31,047 nucleotides of DNA from a virus. The position numbers were made by a program, and so were the translations under genes. Positions 531 through 21,836 of this stretch are shown in pieces. The DNA lies in the IMG/VR virus record IMGVR_UViG_3300046507_000230, positions 1 to 31,047 of that record. One strand, given 5' to 3'. The notes beneath the pieces were generated by a model. That model searched no databases. It saw nothing but the letters and a program-made list of their open reading frames with translations, and was not told the origin of the DNA. The stretch's first letter is position 1. Each line of letters opens with the position of its first letter.

Positions 531-1249
531 TTCTCTAATACGTAGGAACGTTGGTCTGCTAACCTATTGATATTGCTACATAAGTGTATGCAAAAGAGGC
601 CCATTTGGGGCCTGGGGGATCATTGGGTCCCATACGGTACTCTGGCGGAGCACACCGCCCTGTGAAGCCGAGCAGAGGCCCATGGCTTTAGCCCTCGAAT
701 TTTGAAATGGGGGGCCCCTAAACGTTAGCCCGGGGGCCCCATGCTGCCCCGGAGTCCCTTTCGCTGCGCTGTGCCCCCGCAGGCTTCCCCCGCGCATAGG
801 CTAACCCATTGATATCATTGGGCTGACTGCGGATTGCCTGACCGATAGGGGGATAGCTAGGGTTAGCTGCGGCCTAGGCATTAGTGTACGGCGCGTCCAT
901 AAATATGCACACTGGCCAAGCCGTCCATATGTCGGAGCGTAGACTGCCCCCACATGCCCCTAGGAAGCCCGTGGAGCGCGGTTAGCCATTGGCCAGCTAT
1001 GCAACCCCATGTCACCCAATGCCCCCTGAGCGGCCTTCCTAGCTAACCCATGGCTAGTAGGGGCATTAGGGCCGCTATGGTCCTAAATATTCGTTCTCCG
1101 TTATGGTGCAGGTGGCAGCTATGCGCCCTTGGAATCCCTGCTATGCATAGCTCCTAAAGTTAGCCAAAGCCGATGATTGCCTATTGCAACCTGTCTCGAA
1201 TTGGTGTTCATAGGGGGCAGAGCGGAACGCCAACTCGGAGCTAACGGAC

Positions 1250-1339
1250 ATGATCACTGTAACGGACATGGTGCGGCACGGGACCAAAGTTTGCCTCGGT
1301 ACACGTTGGCTGATGGTCATCATTTATTGCGCCCACTAA
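1250..1339 (+). CDS. Possible 29-residue leader peptide
   Basis: ATG at 1250 opens 29 codons ending in TAA. GGAG lies nine bases upstream in the sequence CGGAGCTAACGGACATG. The ATPase start at 1369 has almost the same arrangement, CGGAGCTAACGACCATG, so the two starts look like copies of one translation cassette. The short product (begins MITVTDMVRHG) has no recognisable domain and ends 29 bases before the ATPase. It may be a leader peptide or a broken remnant of a duplicated start. Confidence 0.35.
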   Translation: MITVTDMVRHGTKVCLGTRWLMVIIYCAH

Positions 1340-1368
1340 CACCCTCACACCAATCGGAGCTAACGACC

Positions 1369-2637
1369 ATGACGACCAACGAAACCGCAACCGCACAAGC
1401 AATCCGCGCTGATCGTGGTGCGCTTAGCTTCTCCCTGATGGCTCAGGACGTGAAGCATCCCGCTAAGCTGGCGCTTCGCAAATGGTTGTCAGCTAATGGC
1501 GTCCCGTCAACCTACGCTGCTCGCCTGTCCTTCGCAGAGCTAGAGAACGCGTGGAACGATACCAGCGATGCCTCGCTCAATATCCTTCGCCTGTCCCAAG
1601 GCAATGCTAGCTCGACCAATACCGCTAGCGCCAACGGGGCGGCCCATGACACCACTTTCACCATGACCACTAAGGAAGAAACCCACACCATGAACGCTCA
1701 CACTACTGCCCCTAGCGCTGCTGACGCTGTTGCCCCGTTGCTCGACTTCATCGCCAGCCGCACCGCAGGCGCCGTGGATGCGGCTAAGGTCGCGTCGATT
1801 GTCACTGAGCAGATGGATGCATTGATTGCTCTGCTGCCCGACATGATTAAGCAGCATGCCGACGTTCGCACCATTGAGATTAAGAAGCACGATGGCTCGA
1901 CCTATAAGGTTGAGGGCCGCGTTCATCCCAAATTCGAGACGCTGCTTAAGGTCGCTGCATCCCGCCAAGCGAACGGCCGTCACCCGAACATTATGCTTTC
2001 GGGCCCGACCGGTAGCGGCAAAACCCATGCGGTTGAGCAGCTGGCTAAGGCGCTTGGATTGGAGTTCTATACCAATGGCGCTATCTCAATGGACCATCAG
2101 CTAGTCGGCTTCAAAGACGCTTCCGGCACCTATCACGAAACCCCGCTCCGCAAGGCGTTCGGCCGTCCTGCCATTTACCTGTTTGACGAAATTGATAGCT
2201 CGGACAACTCGCCTCTGCTCTGCCTCGCTGGCGCATTGGCTAACGGTGGTTTCGAGTTCCCCGACCAGTTCATTGAGCGTCACCCCGATAGCATTATCAT
2301 CGCTGCCGGTAACACATGGGGCAACGGCGCAACGGCGGAGTTCGTCGGCCGCAATCGCCTTGACGGCGCAATCAAGTCTCGCTTCCCCGTTCGCATTAGC
2401 TGGGATTATGACGAAAAGCTGGAGCGCGATATCTCCGGTAACCTCGAATGGGCATTGCGTGTCCAGAAGGCGCGCGCCAACGCAAAGCGGGCTGGCATCA
2501 AGGTGCAGATTGATCCGCGCATGACGCAAGCGGGGGCGGCTATCATCAATGCAGGCATGACGGCAGATGAAGCGGCCGAATTGACCTATCTGGCGGAGCT
2601 CACTCCCGACCAACGCCGCATGATTGACGCGAAATAA
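1369..2637 (+). CDS. MoxR/CobS-like AAA+ ATPase
   Basis: 422 residues from the ATG at 1369, chosen because GGAG lies nine bases upstream; the frame is open further upstream but without a good start. Walker A is SGPTGSGKT at 211-219, Walker B is YLFDEID with D273 and E274, a sensor-1-type Asn is in AAGNTWG near 315, and an arginine-finger-like segment (NRLDGAIKSRF) ends near 339. This layout fits the MoxR/CobS branch of AAA+ proteins, which remodel partners that often carry VWA-like domains. Residues 15-65 form a separate N-terminal region with a SAP-like look (LALRKWLSANGVPSTYAARL). A Thr/Ala-rich linker around 70-118 contains a second MTTKEET motif resembling the N-terminus, which hints at fusion or internal duplication. 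The next gene is the probable partner. The substrate is unknown. Confidence 0.85.
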   Translation: MTTNETATAQAIRADRGALSFSLMAQDVKHPAKLALRKWLSANGVPSTYAARLSFAELENAWNDTSDASLNILRLSQGNASSTNTASANGAAHDTTFTMTTKEETHTMNAHTTAPSAADAVAPLLDFIASRTAGAVDAAKVASIVTEQMDALIALLPDMIKQHADVRTIEIKKHDGSTYKVEGRVHPKFETLLKVAASRQANGRHPNIMLSGPTGSGKTHAVEQLAKALGLEFYTNGAISMDHQLVGFKDASGTYHETPLRKAFGRPAIYLFDEIDSSDNSPLLCLAGALANGGFEFPDQFIERHPDSIIIAAGNTWGNGATAEFVGRNRLDGAIKSRFPVRISWDYDEKLERDISGNLEWALRVQKARANAKRAGIKVQIDPRMTQAGAAIINAGMTADEAAELTYLAELTPDQRRMIDAK

Positions 2638-2663
2638 TTTGGGCAAAAGGGTTGCCATTGGTA

Positions 2664-2691
2664 TTGACTAGCCATGGCAACCCTATACAAT
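2664..2691 (+). promoter_or_regulatory. Sigma70-type promoter, TTGACT-16-TACAAT
   Basis: TTGACT at 2664-2669 and TACAAT at 2686-2691 are 16 bases apart, in the gap between the ATPase stop (2637) and the next ATG (2727). Each hexamer matches the host consensus at five of six positions, making this the best host-type promoter in the early region. It would give the partner gene its own transcript. Confidence 0.6.
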
Positions 2692-2726
2692 CCGGGCAGT
2701 TGAGCAGAACACAGCGGAGCGAACCA

Positions 2727-3587
2727 ATGATCACTAAATCGGAACGGCGCGGGCTTAAGGGCGGAACGGACTATTTCGCGGTTTGCGATATGGAAGGTTT
2801 TGCGGAGTTGGCTGCCTCTGTTCCTGCGGAGCAATCGGAGCGCAGGGGCGCATCTAGGGGCGGCGAAGGCAGCTGGTATGGAGACAAAACCTATACGCAA
2901 GCCCTCGATTGCGTGCGCAATGGAGACTTGGCCGGAGTTGCTGCCTCCGAGCAGCTGCTCGACAAGCTTGAGGCAGAGCAATTCGTTTCGCCCGTATGGC
3001 GCAATCGCCTTGACGTGGTCGGTGGTTCGCCCTGTGTCCCGGCCTATCTCGCTGGTCACCCAATGGCCATGCGGCGCCGTGAGCGCGTTATGTCCGAGCA
3101 GGGGCCGTTGACTATCATTGTTGCTATGACGCTGTCGGGCGCGATTGAGGTTGAGGATATGCGCAAGCGGGGCGCAACGTTGCTCGCCTTGGTCCGCCTG
3201 CTGTCAACTAATCGCCCGGTTGAGATTTGGACGGCAGTTTGCCTTGGTTCAACGGGGCGCGGGGCGCATGTGCTCACTAAGCTTGACACTGCCCCGCTCG
3301 ACTTGGCGCGCGCTGCTCACATGCTAACTGATCCGTGCGTTACACGCGGGCTTGGCTATGCTTCATGCAACCATATCGCATCGGGCGGTTACATGGGCGG
3401 ATGGCCCCATGGCAACTTTGAAGCCTACCAGCGCACGGCGCGTGAACTCTATAGCAACGTTATCGGCACTAGCTCCGAGGTTCTCTATGTCGGCGCGGCC
3501 CATGTGGATGATCCGACCGTAAAAGAGCCGGTCAAGTGGCTTAAGGAAACACTCGCCCAATACGGCGGTGCGGCGCTGGCGGAGTAG
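2727..3587 (+). CDS. AAA+ partner protein, DUF7192-like (possible VWA-like fold)
   Basis: 286 residues from ATG 2727, preceded by CGGAGCGAACCA, a relative of the ATPase start cassette. An in-frame TTG at 2652 is rejected because it precedes the promoter. Features are an N-terminal acidic/aromatic segment, GSWYGDKTYTQAL near residue 48, then VVGGSPCVPAYLAGHP followed by TIIVAMTLSGAIEV, a hydrophobic strand followed by a gene-long alpha/beta pattern. Phage proteins of this type (I recall the name DUF7192) commonly follow a MoxR/CobS-like ATPase, and the middle resembles the central sheet of a VWA domain, but no clear DxSxS metal site is visible. Function as an ATPase adaptor or substrate-binding subunit is inferred from position and analogy to CobS-CobT and MoxR-VWA pairs. 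Confidence 0.6.
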   Translation: MITKSERRGLKGGTDYFAVCDMEGFAELAASVPAEQSERRGASRGGEGSWYGDKTYTQALDCVRNGDLAGVAASEQLLDKLEAEQFVSPVWRNRLDVVGGSPCVPAYLAGHPMAMRRRERVMSEQGPLTIIVAMTLSGAIEVEDMRKRGATLLALVRLLSTNRPVEIWTAVCLGSTGRGAHVLTKLDTAPLDLARAAHMLTDPCVTRGLGYASCNHIASGGYMGGWPHGNFEAYQRTARELYSNVIGTSSEVLYVGAAHVDDPTVKEPVKWLKETLAQYGGAALAE

Positions 3588-6729: not shown

Positions 6730-7881
6730 ATGGCATACGCTGAAAAGAAACAAGGCAAGCCTACAGGAAAGTTCCTTGGCGAAGTTGTCGTCAAGGGCAA
6801 GCGCTTCCGACGTACGTTCGACCGCAAGAAGGATGCGGAAGGCTATGAGCTATACGTGAAGCTCACGGGAGACGAGCCGCCGACAATTATTGACGGCGCC
6901 CCGAGCACAGGGGCCCCAACGTTCGCTGAGGTGACCGAGCTAGCCAAGGCTAAAGGCGGCCCCCATGGCAAATGGAAGAAGGGCAAGGACCGGAGCCTTA
7001 TGCAGCGCCTCGAATACTGCGTGGCTGTCATCGGCTCCTATGAGGTACAGCGGGTAACTAGGGCCGTGCTGGGCAAGATCAGCGAAAGCCTCCAAGGACG
7101 CTCCAAGAGCGCCACACGGTACGGGGAGCCTCTCAGTAACGCCACCATCAACCGCTACCTATCGGCCGCCTCTGCCGTGCTGGCGTTCGCTCACAATGAG
7201 GAAATCCTGACCGAGCGGCCCCCGGCTGCGCCCTATCTGGACGAGGAGGAGACCAAGAAGGAGCGGGACGTGCTGTTGCCGGAGCAGGACGAAGTTATCT
7301 TGCAGCTAATGCGCGAGGCCGGGGACAAGCTGGAGGCCCTGTGCGTCGAGGCTATGATCCACACCGGGTTGCGGCGGGGCGAACTGTGCGAGCGCCTGAC
7401 GCCCGAGCAGATCACCATTGAACAGGTAGAGGACGAAGACGGAACGTTTGTTCACATCGGGGTCATTCGATTACACAAGGGACAGACTAAGAACGGAAAG
7501 GGACGCATTGTAACCCTTCCGGCCGATTTGGCTAAGCAAATCCGCGCGCTGATAGCTACCGGGCGAGTGCCAAAAGGTAACCGTGTGCTAACTTGTTTCA
7601 AGCGAGCGGTAAAACGCGCGGGGGTCTCCGGCAACATCGTGATCCACTCGTTGCGCCATGCACGCGTGAGGCGACTGCGGAAAGCTGGCGTCGAGAAGGC
7701 AATTCGCAAGCAATTACTTGGACATATGGACGATGATGTCCATGATGACTATGACGACCTTGACCTTGAGGATCATCTTGAGGTTGCTAAGAAAGTTGAA
7801 AAGTACGCGGGGGACCGGGTTGAAAAGTTGGCTAAACGCTCCTCGCAAGTCATTGATTTTGCTAAGGTCAGCGAAGGATAA
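6730..7881 (+). CDS. int: Tyrosine recombinase / phage integrase
   Basis: 383 residues from ATG 6730. Residues 1-45 are an arm-binding-type basic N-terminus (KGKRFRRTFDRKKDAEGYEL), residues 62-165 a SAM-like core-binding domain, and 180-345 the catalytic domain. Catalytic residues are visible: R215 in HTGLRRGEL, Lys in the beta-hairpin near 250-257, H306 and R309 in IHSLRHARVRR, H332 in LLGHMDDD, and nucleophile Y341. The HDDYDDLDLED context around the Tyr is unusually acidic. It would integrate and excise the phage genome at attP/attB. It lies directly upstream of the RNA polymerase, as in several temperate T7-like phages. No attP core can be named from the sequence. Confidence 0.92.
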   Translation: MAYAEKKQGKPTGKFLGEVVVKGKRFRRTFDRKKDAEGYELYVKLTGDEPPTIIDGAPSTGAPTFAEVTELAKAKGGPHGKWKKGKDRSLMQRLEYCVAVIGSYEVQRVTRAVLGKISESLQGRSKSATRYGEPLSNATINRYLSAASAVLAFAHNEEILTERPPAAPYLDEEETKKERDVLLPEQDEVILQLMREAGDKLEALCVEAMIHTGLRRGELCERLTPEQITIEQVEDEDGTFVHIGVIRLHKGQTKNGKGRIVTLPADLAKQIRALIATGRVPKGNRVLTCFKRAVKRAGVSGNIVIHSLRHARVRRLRKAGVEKAIRKQLLGHMDDDVHDDYDDLDLEDHLEVAKKVEKYAGDRVEKLAKRSSQVIDFAKVSEG

Positions 7882-8032: not shown

Positions 8033-8052
8033 AACGTGCCTACGCACTACAG
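8033..8052 (+). repeat. 20-base direct repeat, left copy (flanks RNA polymerase gene)
   Basis: AACGTGCCTACGCACTACAG here matches AACGTTCCTACGCACTACAG at 10458-10477 with one mismatch. The left copy lies just before the polymerase ATG, the right one inside its last 40 codons. Confidence 0.7.
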
Positions 8053-8067
8053 AAGAAAGAGGGACTG

Positions 8068-10584
8068 ATGCAGCAGATGATGGAAGCTAGGGAATACCAG
8101 CTAGCGGCCGCCTCCCTGAAGAAGCGGGACAAGCGACAAGCCGCTAGCTTCGGCAAGGGATCGACTACGGGGGCAATGGCCCTGAGTGGCCAGCAGTTGC
8201 CCCGCCTCACTGAGTACCTGCGGGAGAAGTGGAAGACGCCCTGCCGAGCTAACGCCCCCGAATATAATCTTGAGAGGATGCTGAGGCAGCTGGACCCGGA
8301 GCTTGTGGCACTAGTGTGCTTGCAGACCGGCCTGCATGTGGTCTCCTGTAACGAGAAGCAGCAAGTCAAGGCATTCAAATCGTTCGCCGCCAACCTTGAG
8401 GCCGAGTGCTTCCATGCGGGGCTGCTCAAGGCCAATAAGAAGCTGGCAGAGCGGGCTAACAAGTACGCTGAGCAGAGGCACGCCAATCAGAAGATGCGGC
8501 AAACAGCGGCCCGCGCTGTAGCTAAGAAGGCCGGGTTCACGGGCGAGGAATGGACCGCCGAGGATCACACCGTTGCCGGAGTGTGGTGCGCTAACCTGCT
8601 CACCCAAGGGCTACCCGATGTGTTCCGCTGGGAAGAGTTCACCGAATGGAACAAGGCTCTCGGCATCCCCGAGAAGTTCCGCATCCTCACGGTGTCCGAG
8701 GAGGCGCACGGGTTCATGGCGGATGCTGTGAAGGACATGATCCTTCGGCGGCCGGTTTGGCTCCCCCGGCTGACTCCGCCCGAGCCGTGGGTTAGCTACA
8801 AGCAGCGGCCCTCCGAGGACACCCGTATCCTGAAGGACGCCGCTATCATCAAGGCTTACAACAACGACCAAATTGCTCTGGTCAAGAAGGCGATAGCTGA
8901 CGGCACGATGGCGCCCGCGCTGAAGGGCATCAACACGCTGCAAGCCGTGCCCTTCAAGATCAACACTTGGCTGTTGGACGTGATGGATCAGGTGAAGGCT
9001 AACGACATCGTGGTCCCCGGGTTCACCGTGGCCGACAAAATCGATGTGCCCCCGAAGCTGACCGAGGAGGCGTGGCAGGCATTGGGCCAAGACGAGCGCA
9101 AGCTAGCTAGCGAGGAGCGCTACTCTGCACAGAAGCTCAACCGGCAGCGACATAGCGACCTGACGCTGTTGGCTCTGGACATGGCCGAGGCTCACCGGTT
9201 GGCCGAGGTGCCTGAGTTCTACATGGGCATGACGATGGACTTTAGGGGCCGCGTGTATCCGTTGCCGCGCTTCAATTTCCAGCGGGGCGATCATGTGCGC
9301 AGTCTCTTCCTATTCAAGAACGGGCTTCCGATTGGCGAAAAGGGTACACATTGGCTACGAGTACACGTTGCTAACTGTTGGGCGCAGAAGGCCCCCGGCG
9401 AGGATACCGGGCTCGACAAGAAACCAATAGCTGAGAGGGTACAATGGACGAAGGACAACGAAGAGACGTTGAGGAGCTACGCGGAGGACCCACTGACGAA
9501 CACAGGCTGGACGAAGGCAGACAGCCCGTTCCTTTTCCTTGCTGCTGCGAAAGAGCTAGTGACCTCCCTGAGTTCTGGATACGGCTATGTGTGCCATCTG
9601 CCTGTCAGCTTCGACGGTAGCTGTTCGGGACTCCAGCATATGGCGGGCGCGACGCTGGCTGAAGAAGGCCGCTTCGTGAACCTCACGGACAACGAAGTCC
9701 CGCAGGACATCTACGCCATTGTGGCTAAGGAGGCCCGCCGTATGGTCGAGGAGGATGCAAGGGGCCAGGACGAAAAGAAGCGCAAGTTTGCCCAGCTGTT
9801 CCTTAGCTACAAGGAGGGCAAGGGCATCGACAGGAAGCTGTTGAAGCGCTCGACAATGACGTTCTGTTATAGCTCCGAGGCTAACGGGATGGGCGATCAG
9901 TTCTTTGATGACCTGATGGCACCATTGCAAGCGGATGCCGTGCGCAACAAGACGCCCCACCACTTCGGGACCGTCAAGGAGCAGGCGGCTGCGGCTCGCT
10001 ACATGGGCCGTGTGGCTTACGCTGCCATCACTGAGGTAGTCCGCAAGCCCGCAGAGGCCATGGACTTCCTTAAGGCTCTCGCGGGCGCTATGGCGCACGA
10101 GGGGAAGCCTGTCAGCTGGGTGACACCGGCAGGGATACCGTGCGTCAACCGCTACCACGAGGCCCAGACGAAGACGCTGAGCCTCTGGCTGCACAATGAG
10201 CGCATCAAGGTCACCGTGGCCACGGGCAACGAAGCGCCCCTCTTGAAACGGAAGTGCCAACAGTCGATTGCGCCCAACTGGGTCCATTCGCTGGATGCTG
10301 CGCATCTGCTGTTGACCGTGGGTGCATGTGCCGACGAAGGGATCACGGACATCGTTACCGTCCATGACTCATTTGGTTGCCTTCCGGCACATGCTGACAG
10401 GTTCAACCTAATCATTCGTGAGCAGTTTGTGTTGATGTATCAACGACATGATCTACTAACGTTCCTACGCACTACAGCAAGCGCTCAGTTGTCAGAAGCA
10501 AACCAAAAGCGACTGCCGCAGCTTCCGACCAAGGGCAAGCTGGATTTAGACGAAGTCCACCGGGCGAAGTATGCCTTTGCCTAA
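8068..10584 (+). CDS. T7-type single-subunit DNA-directed RNA polymerase
   Basis: 838 residues (T7 enzyme 883). ATG 8068 has GAGGG five bases upstream. Motif A is SFDGSCSGLQH with catalytic D516, the O-helix equivalent has K593 and Y601 (KRSTMTFCYSSE), and motif C is VHDSFG with catalytic D767. The C-terminus LDLDEVHRAKYAFA ends in the conserved FA dipeptide region. The specificity-loop region lies about 692-730. The residue after Y601 is Ser where T7 has Gly640. The first about 45 residues of T7 are missing; codons just upstream of the ATG (LRRERAYALQKK) resemble that part of T7 but are cut off by an in-frame TAG at 8020, so a non-ATG start is possible. It transcribes middle and late phage genes. 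Confidence 0.97.
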   Translation: MQQMMEAREYQLAAASLKKRDKRQAASFGKGSTTGAMALSGQQLPRLTEYLREKWKTPCRANAPEYNLERMLRQLDPELVALVCLQTGLHVVSCNEKQQVKAFKSFAANLEAECFHAGLLKANKKLAERANKYAEQRHANQKMRQTAARAVAKKAGFTGEEWTAEDHTVAGVWCANLLTQGLPDVFRWEEFTEWNKALGIPEKFRILTVSEEAHGFMADAVKDMILRRPVWLPRLTPPEPWVSYKQRPSEDTRILKDAAIIKAYNNDQIALVKKAIADGTMAPALKGINTLQAVPFKINTWLLDVMDQVKANDIVVPGFTVADKIDVPPKLTEEAWQALGQDERKLASEERYSAQKLNRQRHSDLTLLALDMAEAHRLAEVPEFYMGMTMDFRGRVYPLPRFNFQRGDHVRSLFLFKNGLPIGEKGTHWLRVHVANCWAQKAPGEDTGLDKKPIAERVQWTKDNEETLRSYAEDPLTNTGWTKADSPFLFLAAAKELVTSLSSGYGYVCHLPVSFDGSCSGLQHMAGATLAEEGRFVNLTDNEVPQDIYAIVAKEARRMVEEDARGQDEKKRKFAQLFLSYKEGKGIDRKLLKRSTMTFCYSSEANGMGDQFFDDLMAPLQADAVRNKTPHHFGTVKEQAAAARYMGRVAYAAITEVVRKPAEAMDFLKALAGAMAHEGKPVSWVTPAGIPCVNRYHEAQTKTLSLWLHNERIKVTVATGNEAPLLKRKCQQSIAPNWVHSLDAAHLLLTVGACADEGITDIVTVHDSFGCLPAHADRFNLIIREQFVLMYQRHDLLTFLRTTASAQLSEANQKRLPQLPTKGKLDLDEVHRAKYAFA
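10458..10477 (+). repeat. 20-base direct repeat, right copy
   Basis: Partner of 8033-8052 (19 of 20 bases identical), lying within the polymerase 3' coding region where it encodes part of FLRTTA. Together they bracket nearly the entire gene about 2.4 kb apart. Confidence 0.7.
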
Positions 10585-19839: not shown

Positions 19840-20210
19840 ATGACGACAAGCTGAAGCAGATGCTTGAGTTGGTTGGTGAGTATCGCGCCGAGGAAGCTGT
19901 TGTTGGCTCTTGGTTAGCTACAGAAGACAAGCGCAACATCGACAACCTCGACCTGTTCGAAGCGATGTTGCGGGAAGCATACCCCGACGTGACCCTTGTG
20001 GTCGCTGGGCATCACATCATGGCCATGCGCCAAGGGAAGCCACTTCCTATTGAGGTGGCTAGCCCAGACACGCTGATCTTCAATCACTACATCGCGCAGA
20101 AGATTTGGGGCGACCCTTATCTTTACATTCTTGCTCAGCTGGCAGCCTCACCGCCTGCGGAGAGAGACGCGCTGCTGCGGCAGCTGTTCTACAACAGGAA
20201 GCCCCAATGA
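19836..20210 (+). CDS. Hypothetical protein, 124 residues
   Basis: ATG 19836 overlaps the preceding TGA. The product is largely helical (DKLKQMLELVGEYRAEEAVV) with an IEVASPDTLIFNHYIAQKIW segment. No family recognised. Its TGA overlaps the next ATG. Confidence 0.6.
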   Translation: MNDDKLKQMLELVGEYRAEEAVVGSWLATEDKRNIDNLDLFEAMLREAYPDVTLVVAGHHIMAMRQGKPLPIEVASPDTLIFNHYIAQKIWGDPYLYILAQLAASPPAERDALLRQLFYNRKPQ

Positions 20211-20320
20211 TAGTCGCTCTGCTGCTCAACCACATTCTTGATGCTGTCGGCATCTTCGCCATCATCACCACCACAATCAAAATCTCGCTTCGCTATCCGC
20301 TGAAGCGCTGGTTCTTCTAA
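20207..20320 (+). CDS. Small membrane protein, 37 residues
   Basis: ATG 20207 overlaps the previous stop (ATGA). The product (MIVALLLNHILDAVGIFAII) is hydrophobic with a basic C-terminus (YPLKRWFF), consistent with one membrane helix, N-terminus outside. It directly precedes the TerB-like gene. Confidence 0.5.
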   Translation: MIVALLLNHILDAVGIFAIITTTIKISLRYPLKRWFF

Positions 20321-20332
20321 AGGAACAACACA

Positions 20333-20767
20333 ATGAGCTTTCTTTCCAACATTCTCTCGACCGCCAAAAAGACCATCAACAGCTATGCTGGCGACGCCGC
20401 GTTCCTGAAGGGCGTAGCTAGCGCAGCCGCTAACGTGACTGCCGCCGATGGCTCGATTGATGACAATGAAATCGAGTCCGCCATCTCCGGTATGCAGGCG
20501 AACCCCATCGTCTCGGCGTCCTACAGCTCCTCGCAGATTGAAGAGGCGCTCAACGGCGCCCTCAGCCGCGCCAAGTCCCGCGCGGGCCGCATGGAGAACA
20601 AGCGCTTCATTGAGGCCCTTATGACCCGTGACGTGTCCGTTCGTCAGGACGTGTTCCTGATTGCAGCTGACGTTGCAGATCAGGGTGGCATTGGCCAAGA
20701 GGAGCATGTGGTGCTCAACGATATTGCCAAGCTGCTCAACGTTGATGGCCAGAAGCTGCTCTCGTGA
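20333..20767 (+). CDS. terB: TerB-like tellurite-resistance/stress protein
   Basis: 144 residues (TerB about 150). ATG 20333 follows AAAGGAACAACACA. The all-helical protein has two pseudo-repeated acidic sites, VTAADGSIDDNEIESAISGM near residue 35 and ADVADQGGIGQEEHVVL near residue 115, matching the paired ADGxxxxxE motifs of TerB (from memory of the family). TerB proteins bind divalent metal and act with TerC at the membrane in metal and stress responses. A TerC-like gene lies 850 bases downstream. It lies in a phage middle region, so it is phage cargo or a host-takeover gene. Confidence 0.75.
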   Translation: MSFLSNILSTAKKTINSYAGDAAFLKGVASAAANVTAADGSIDDNEIESAISGMQANPIVSASYSSSQIEEALNGALSRAKSRAGRMENKRFIEALMTRDVSVRQDVFLIAADVADQGGIGQEEHVVLNDIAKLLNVDGQKLLS

Positions 20768-20844
20768 GCACCTCTGACATGCTTGGTATGGCGATCATCG
20801 TGGTCGCCATTCTCTTCGGCTACCTCATGGCCGAGTGCCGCTAG
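20764..20844 (+). CDS. Membrane peptide, 26 residues, GTG start
   Basis: GTG 20764 overlaps the TerB-like stop (GTGA). The product is one hydrophobic helix (MLGMAIIVVAILFGYLMAEC). It may be an accessory membrane anchor of the TerB-TerC cluster. Confidence 0.4.
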   Translation: MSTSDMLGMAIIVVAILFGYLMAECR

Positions 20845-20863
20845 CTAACCAACAAGGAACACC

Positions 20864-21097
20864 ATGTTCTCCAAGATCAAAGCTTTCTTCGTCACCGTCG
20901 AGCACGACGTTGAGGCGATCATCGCGAACTTCACCGACACCATCACGAAGCTGGAGGCCGCCGCGAAAGCGAAGGCCACCGAGTTCGACACGCTGACCGA
21001 AGAAGCTGAGGCCCTCAAGGCCAAGGCGAGCGCCGCGCTTGCTGCTTCCGACAAGGCGGCTGCGGTTGCCGACAAGATCAAGGCCCTCGTGGCCTAG
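20864..21097 (+). CDS. Ala-rich coiled-coil protein, 77 residues
   Basis: ATG 20864 follows AACAAGGAACACC. After a short hydrophobic/amphipathic start (MFSKIKAFFVTV) the protein is one long Ala/Glu/Lys coiled coil (TKLEAAAKAKATEFDTLTEE). It sits between the TerB-like and TerC-like genes and may be a scaffold linking them, which is speculation. Confidence 0.65.
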   Translation: MFSKIKAFFVTVEHDVEAIIANFTDTITKLEAAAKAKATEFDTLTEEAEALKAKASAALAASDKAAAVADKIKALVA

Positions 21098-21182
21098 CAG
21101 GCATCCTTGGGTCGCGCCCGGGGCGACGAGTGAAATCGTGACAGGAGGGGAGAGACCCTCACATCAATTCAAAGGAAACACT
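21098..21182 (+). promoter_or_regulatory. Structured leader before the TerC-like gene
   Basis: Within 85 bases there are three hairpins: GTCGC-gcccggg-GCGAC, ACGA-gtgaaa-TCGT and GAGGG-gagaga-CCCTC. A longer pairing GGGTC with GACCC could close over the first two. Metal-responsive leaders often precede TerC-family genes; the yybP-ykoY consensus (GGGGAGUAG with CAACAUAC) is not present, so this would be something else or no riboswitch. Confidence 0.45.
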
Positions 21183-21836
21183 ATGGACACTATGTTCTGG
21201 GCTGCGCTTCTCGGCATCGTCTGGATTGACTTGCTGCTCTCCGGCGACAACGCGGTAGTTATCGCGATGGTCAGCCGCCAGCTGCCAGCTAACAAGCAGA
21301 AATGGGGCATCATCGGGGGCACCGTGGCCGCTATCGGCCTCCGGGTGGCCATGGCGTTCTTCGCTGCGGCCCTTCTGGGCGTACCTGGGCTCAGCCTGAT
21401 CGGCGGCGTCTTCCTGCTCTACGTGGCAGCTAAGCTTGTCACGGGCGAGGACGACGAAGGGGGCTCTGTGAAGCCCGCAGTGACCCTGTGGGCCGCTATT
21501 GCCACCATTGCAGCTGCGGACGCCAGCATGAGCCTCGACAACGTCATGGCCATTGCCGCGCTGTCTCACGGCTCGATGCTGCTTATGGCTGTCGGCGTGC
21601 TCCTGTCGATCCCAATGGTTATCGCTGGCGCCGCTATCATCTCCAAGGTCATTGGTCGCTTCCCGGTCCTCGTGTGGGCCGGTGGCGCTCTGTTGGCTTG
21701 GGTGGCTGGGGGCATTATCGCAGCTGACCCGTGGGCAGTGCCGTACGTTGACCACTACATGACAGCGGCGGCCTGCGTGGTTGCCGTGCTGGCCGTTGGC
21801 TGGTTCTCGCAGGACAGGGGGCTGGCTGATGCGTGA
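21183..21836 (+). CDS. TerC/YjbE-family integral membrane protein
   Basis: 217 residues from ATG 21183 (AAGGA seven bases upstream). About seven transmembrane segments are visible. The paired conserved motifs of the family are IVWIDLLLSGDNAVVIAMV (N-terminal) and AADASMSLDNVMAIAAL (middle), each with Asp/Asn in the membrane, the presumed metal-translocation sites. TerC-family proteins export manganese and contribute to tellurite and metal stress resistance; the length is closest to the YjbE subgroup. It is an unusual gene for a T7-like phage. It follows the TerB-like and coiled-coil genes, so they may form one metal-stress complex. Confidence 0.9.
   Translation: MDTMFWAALLGIVWIDLLLSGDNAVVIAMVSRQLPANKQKWGIIGGTVAAIGLRVAMAFFAAALLGVPGLSLIGGVFLLYVAAKLVTGEDDEGGSVKPAVTLWAAIATIAAADASMSLDNVMAIAALSHGSMLLMAVGVLLSIPMVIAGAAIISKVIGRFPVLVWAGGALLAWVAGGIIAADPWAVPYVDHYMTAAACVVAVLAVGWFSQDRGLADA

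Follow-up and report, generated by a model that had tools for sequence, protein, structure and literature searches.

A TerB–TerC gene pair with a small membrane peptide in the replication genes of a T7-like phage, and its possible role in divalent-metal handling

Genome Context of the TerB–TerC Block

The window, meaning the whole stretch of DNA analyzed here, is a virus record of 31,047 bases. Its plus strand carries a replication set of the T7 type (RNA polymerase, an SSB matching SBB_T7, Phage_endo_I, a primase-helicase, DNA_pol_A and an exonuclease), and its minus strand carries structural genes that include a phrog_1328 head protein, a tail fibre and an endolysin. A preliminary description, made from the letters of the DNA, had placed the block in a T7-like phage; the label suits the single-subunit RNA polymerase and the T7-type replication genes but not the gene order, the minus-strand virion genes, the phrog_1328 head or the integrase. 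The block containing TerB and TerC belongs to a tightly packed run of plus-strand genes whose end is near 23.3 kb; overlaps of start and stop codons occur at the peptides of 37 and 26 aa and also following TerC (Table 1). All open reading frames of the block exist where the preliminary description had put them, and the start that it gave for the block coincides exactly with the 37-aa membrane peptide.

Table 1. Positions of the block, its leader and associated phage features in the window.
Feature	Position	Strand	Basis or remark
Integrase	6730-7881	+	profile search
Single-subunit RNA polymerase	8068-10584	+	PF00940
Candidate phage-polymerase promoter, 5' of the gene run holding TerB/TerC	10458-10477	+	inferred; partner 8033-8052 (+)
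37-aa membrane peptide	20207-20320	+	start overlaps upstream ORF stop (ATGA); conserved
TerB-like protein, 144 aa, two acidic motifs	20333-20767	+	PHROG_632
26-aa hydrophobic peptide	20764-20844	+	GTG start overlaps TerB stop; not core
77-aa coiled-coil-type protein	20864-21097	+	phrog_2380; not core
Untranslated spacer/leader of TerC	21098-21182	+	three predicted hairpins; conserved in L013, L014
TerC, YjbE subfamily, 217 aa	21183-21836	+	PF03741, TIGR03717, motifs D16/SGDN and D113/SLDN

Elsewhere in the window, positions 1294-3587 encode a MoxR-like AAA_5 ATPase followed by a DUF7192 protein, the ATPase matching IetA-type defence ATPases weakly. The pentamers AGCTA/TAGCT are over-represented across the window (188 observed vs 114 expected), and CCTGG/CCAGG is strongly avoided (7 observed vs 50 expected), as are CCGCGG and GCCGGC; this avoidance perhaps reflects escape from restriction.

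Identity and Conservation of TerC and TerB

By profile comparison, TerC is clearly a protein of the YjbE type. It matches PF03741 with an E-value of 1.6e-41 and 142.4 bits (cut-off 27.8) and TIGR03717 (YjbE) with 186.4 bits (cut-off 134.8), and the earlier TerC/YjbE-like call, for which a PF03741 search had been proposed, is thereby borne out at both curated cut-offs. The two acidic motifs (D16 with S20-G21-D22-N23, and D113 with S117-L118-D119-N120) are invariant in 17 aligned sequences, pairwise dN/dS against relatives is 0.14-0.28, and the AF2 model has eight helices at a poor pLDDT of 61, too low for the model to be of use. In these cut-offs and acidic motifs the window TerC agrees with the TerC family, YjbE subfamily, whose studied relatives are MeeF/MeeY of Bacillus and Alx of E. 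coli. Unlike these proteins, which represent related subfamilies, the window TerC is phage-encoded, adjoins TerB and is not accompanied by a yybP-ykoY riboswitch.

The TerB-like protein matches PHROG_632, annotated "tellurite resistance," at 8.6e-20. The search with PF05099 that had been suggested for it gave a divided result: the window protein alone scores 16.9 bits, under the cut-off of 24.4, but its relative in L043, which is 49% identical, passes at 46.5 bits. A profile of the family also matches the TerB structure 2jxu over residues 14-140, weakly (E 0.0021). Through PHROG_632, the 2jxu profile match and the L043 relative, the window protein is assigned to the TerB family.

Of the two ADGxxxxxE-type sites described for TerB, the first (A38-D39-G40...E46) is as described, whereas the second is a variant (D113, A115-D116-QGGIG-QE124). 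Key residues of both motifs (A38-D39-G40, E46, D116, G119 and E124) are invariant in 20 sequences. The AF2 model is a helical bundle with a pLDDT of 80; a fold search of the PDB with this model returned no match at E <= 0.001, and the model matches viral TerB-like models (TM 0.86, 33% identity). The dN/dS of TerB is 0.06-0.13 against four relatives and 0.29 against L029.

Small Peptides and the Coiled-Coil Protein

A genuine small gene encodes the 37-aa membrane peptide, but the peptide is not exclusive to the TerB–TerC unit. Its dN/dS is 0.13-0.24 in four of five comparisons. It stands directly 5' of TerB in 24 of 34 TerB–TerC pairs and is conserved there in the T7-like carriers; in the large phages it lies 2-4 kb from the pair, adjoining a TAXI/NMT1_3-type periplasmic binding protein. 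In L113 (10442-11502) it is directly before such a protein. Homologous membrane peptides of 37-40 aa occur in EBPR siphovirus 2 (gp57) and Bradyrhizobium phage BDU-MI-1, where they precede a TRAP/TAXI-type periplasmic binding protein, whereas the window peptide precedes TerB. In these two phages (L322, with gp57-gp58, and L321) and in L318 and L319, the peptide is directly before the TAXI/NMT1_3-type protein with no TerB or TerC nearby, and peptide and binding protein form a conserved gene pair in other phages. Two large-phage contigs with TerB–TerC (L156 and L159) have a small lipoprotein-like ORF directly 5' of TerB, at the position that the 37-aa peptide occupies in the T7-like phages.

Neither of the other two small proteins that had been listed as parts of the block is a conserved member, whereas the linkage of TerB and TerC in that list was upheld. 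The 26-aa hydrophobic peptide is present in the two nearest TerB–TerC relatives (dN/dS 0.46, nearest relatives only) and has a weak match in one group lacking TerB and TerC. The coiled-coil protein is absent from most phages with the pair and also occurs in phages with no TerB or TerC nearby. Both were rejected as core members because they are not conserved with the pair.

RNA Between TerB and TerC

The preliminary description had referred to a structured leader. The leader is nearly identical in two relatives (L013 and L014), with about 2 substitutions in 65 nt where TerC and TerB have diverged by 0.24-0.41 at synonymous sites, but it is no more stable than its shuffles (z -0.82), so its folding energy is not unusual, and it belongs to no known riboswitch class. 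One double, compensatory change (U-G to A-U) is seen in helix 1 in the comparison with L013/L014. A covariance-model search of Rfam with the window leader and 11 related loci found no match, including to the yybP-ykoY Mn2+ riboswitch, and a metal riboswitch of this or another kind is therefore unsupported. The leader was also considered as a repeated phage promoter and rejected, as its motif does not recur. Its conservation makes a role as RNA or DNA likely.

Other carriers differ in what separates the two genes. A longer structured RNA of about 145-230 nt is found in L004 (6763-6993), L027 (6515-6724), L028 (6503-6715) and L029 (3895-4039); it has the invariant core GGGCGCCGGTTGGACGGCGA...TGATCCAAC, a potential pseudoknot and no Rfam match. 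In L012, L022, L024 and L016-L021, TerB and TerC are separated by a GC-rich hairpin that has a UUCG loop and, in L012, L022 and L024, a T run; it resembles an internal terminator. Because relatives hold either a longer RNA or a terminator-like hairpin at this place, the expression of TerC may be set separately from that of TerB.

Linkage of the Pair in Phages and Its Separation in Hosts

Thirty-five virus contigs encode a TerB of the window family, and in 34 of them TerC follows 3' on the same strand, the two genes being separated by about 0.04-0.73 kb (with a median of about 0.1 kb). The 34 pairs do not amount to 34 independent events, because related metagenomes are the source of many contigs and some contigs hardly differ from one another. 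The carriers comprise two T7-like lineages, large phages and other large contigs. In one T7-like lineage the pair follows the genes for exonuclease and deoxynucleotidase; in the other it lies between those for RNA polymerase and primase. The large phages with the pair also encode a protein of 1143 aa whose homologue in Methylobacterium indicum is annotated as ribonucleotide reductase. In M. indicum itself, the pair is found on plasmid pVL1_2, which looks to us like a phage-plasmid because ribonucleotide reductase, MazG, ThyA and a lytic transglycosylase are also aboard. Four virus contigs (L165-L168) have TerC only, and their TerC copies are distant.

The pair is kept even where its members have been exchanged: identities are 67% for TerB and 96% for TerC in L029, and 93% for TerB and 77% for TerC in L028. 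By contrast, the 37-aa peptide, TerB and TerC are all missing from L071, a T7-like relative of 46,041 bases that is apparently complete, since its RNA polymerase gene is split across the record ends. The block is thus an accessory one, and this comparison shows it missing as a unit. Linkage is strict, the block is gained and lost as a unit, and it is under purifying selection. A search of related phages for conserved order had been suggested; the linkage recurs in many related and unrelated phages, and an absence of the linked genes from all related phages is accordingly not what was found.

All 25 relatives of TerB in the genome collection come from Methylobacterium or the same family; this group is therefore the likely host, and the phage probably infects Methylobacterium. 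A TerB of this family occurs in 110 of 111 Methylobacterium genomes, often in two or more copies, and TerC in 46 of the 111. No adjacent TerB and TerC appeared among the matches listed for these 111 genomes, no TerC was near TerB in 25 fetched chromosomal loci (flanked, in most cases, by 8 kb at either end), and the fetched chromosomal TerC loci contained no TerB; an intact pair on Methylobacterium chromosomes was thus sought and none was found. In a tree of TerB, the chromosomal copies cluster together among mobile ones. In a tree of TerC, which leaves out three chromosomal copies about 60% identical to phage TerC, the paired copies are apart from the chromosomal stand-alone TerC with a support of 0.80. 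Phages keep the two genes side by side whereas their likely hosts keep them apart, which is natural evidence that the two proteins form a functional core.

Candidate Promoters

A sequence of 20-22 nt is found 37 bases 5' of the RNA polymerase gene and recurs within it, 125 bases short of its end, with a further copy in the window at 533-552 (-). Such a sequence just before the polymerase gene and again at its end is also seen in L047 (1368 and 3792), L053 (1542 and 3974), L149 (2051 and 4700) and L150 (2165 and 4814); in a second T7-like lineage the arrangement is related, with positions of -110 and about +8. In L047 and in L053 the two copies are identical within the genome and different between the genomes, as if promoter and polymerase specificity were diverging together. 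These repeats are candidate promoters of the phage polymerase; a recombination site is a possible alternative reading. All candidate phage promoters flank or lie in the RNA polymerase gene. A search of 16-24 kb for sigma-70-like promoters gave none, although the sigma-70 consensus may not fit Methylobacterium promoters. If the repeats are indeed promoters of the phage polymerase, TerB and TerC would be read in the lytic program.

Relation to Known Ter Systems

TerD and TelA are the usual companions of TerB and TerC in ter operons. A profile search of the window and of ten related records found neither domain. In the ter operon terZABCDEF (plasmid R478, Klebsiella), for which a TerB–TerC complex has been proposed, TerB and TerC are side by side as they are here, but the window has no TerD or TelA, its TerC is short and of the YjbE type, and it has the 37-aa membrane peptide in addition. 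Phage-borne Ter genes are already known: TerB and/or TerC have been reported in jumbo phages (PMC7824862), in Otagovirus and Pyxisvirus of Pseudomonas (PMC11256456) and in Paracoccus phages (PMC6536676). TerB and TerC are 18 kb apart in Rhizobium phage RHph_I1_18, whereas they are adjacent in the window. COT4 has TerC together with TelA-type and tellurium-resistance (TerD-type) genes, which the window lacks. The remaining reports of Ter genes in phages concern single genes, from which the adjacent dyad sets the window apart. The openly licensed papers searched contained no description of a recurring TerB–TerC dyad that is accompanied by a small membrane peptide and carried by phages in whose likely hosts the two genes are separate.

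Proposed Function

The side-by-side position of the pair in phages and its separation in the likely hosts suggest metal-ion management at the membrane during infection. TerC proteins of Bacillus export Mn2+ and metalate exported enzymes (PMC10550928), and terC of Klebsiella contributes to resistance to tellurium, zinc and manganese and to phage resistance, with a TerC–TerB core complex proposed (PMC12054061). The block may accordingly be a phage-borne unit of the inner membrane that handles divalent metal. TerC, a LysE-superfamily member of the YjbE type whose two acidic Asp/Asn motifs are conserved, would be the membrane part; the metal moved would most likely be Mn2+ (possibly Zn2+), which would leave the cytosol or be loaded onto exported proteins. 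TerB would be a small cytosolic helical protein that binds metal through its two acidic motifs and forms a complex by docking on TerC, with the 37-aa membrane peptide as a likely accessory partner. As to timing, the phage RNA polymerase would probably express the unit in lytic growth together with the genes for DNA replication, and the benefit would lie in adjusting the supply of metal at the membrane during phage replication.

A TerB–TerC membrane unit for divalent metal of the Mn/Zn type, used in lytic growth, has in our judgment about an even chance of being the correct reading. It is favored by the profile matches of TerC, the family membership of TerB, the acidic motifs of TerC and TerB, linkage in phages versus separation in likely hosts, partner exchange, purifying selection, joint absence in L071, the published work on TerC, the position in the replication run, the overlapping starts and stops, the lack of sigma-70-like promoters at 16-24 kb and the restriction of candidate phage promoters to the polymerase gene and its surroundings; the score of TerB under the Pfam cut-off, the lack of a significant PDB match, the poor TerC model, the absence of a Mn riboswitch and possible expression in a lysogen from promoters unlike the sigma-70 consensus weigh against it.

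The main alternative is superinfection exclusion, in which TerC, TerB and the membrane peptide would alter the inner membrane such that competing phages inject or grow poorly. A terC mutant of Klebsiella gives larger plaques, and ter insertions there abolish phage inhibition and colicin resistance (PMC12054061); a role against superinfecting phages has been proposed for the Ter genes of jumbo phages (PMC7824862). A short membrane peptide as part of the block, and carriage by many unrelated phages that seemingly have a host group in common, would also fit. However, the block is among replication genes and is not an isolated moron with its own promoter, the TerD and TelA of the described anti-phage Ter operons are absent, and a search with defence profiles gives only weak matches (ThsA on TerB and AAA on another gene), on which account a defence profile for the block was rejected. 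Exclusion is thus possible but rather improbable.

Lysogenic conversion, in which an integrated phage would improve the tolerance of its host to metal stress, appears quite unlikely. An integrase is present, and TerB–TerC occurs on the phage-plasmid-like element of M. indicum, but likely hosts already have TerB (110 of 111). Of the functional suggestions made in the preliminary description it is the weakest, because the genes are in a tight same-strand run with lytic replication genes and have no promoter-like site of their own at 16-24 kb (by a sigma-70 consensus that may not fit the host). Tellurite resistance cargo, as the annotation of PHROG_632 would have it, is unsupported and very improbable, the usual ter-operon companions TerD and TelA being absent.

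The role of Ter proteins is an old puzzle, with effects on tellurite, metals, phages and colicins, and the phage pair brings to it a two-gene TerB–TerC unit that is small enough to test. The pair would also place metal handling among the host functions which phages of leaf-associated methylotrophs may carry with them. A bolder and more doubtful proposal is that phages of one genus have built a mobile membrane complex of the 37-aa peptide, TerB and TerC, the TerB being related to a near-universal host gene, and have passed it between unrelated lineages for control of the metal pool or the membrane state of the infected cell in lytic growth. If true, this proposal would make the complex a minimal and selectable Ter system from which the role of TerB and TerC could be learned.
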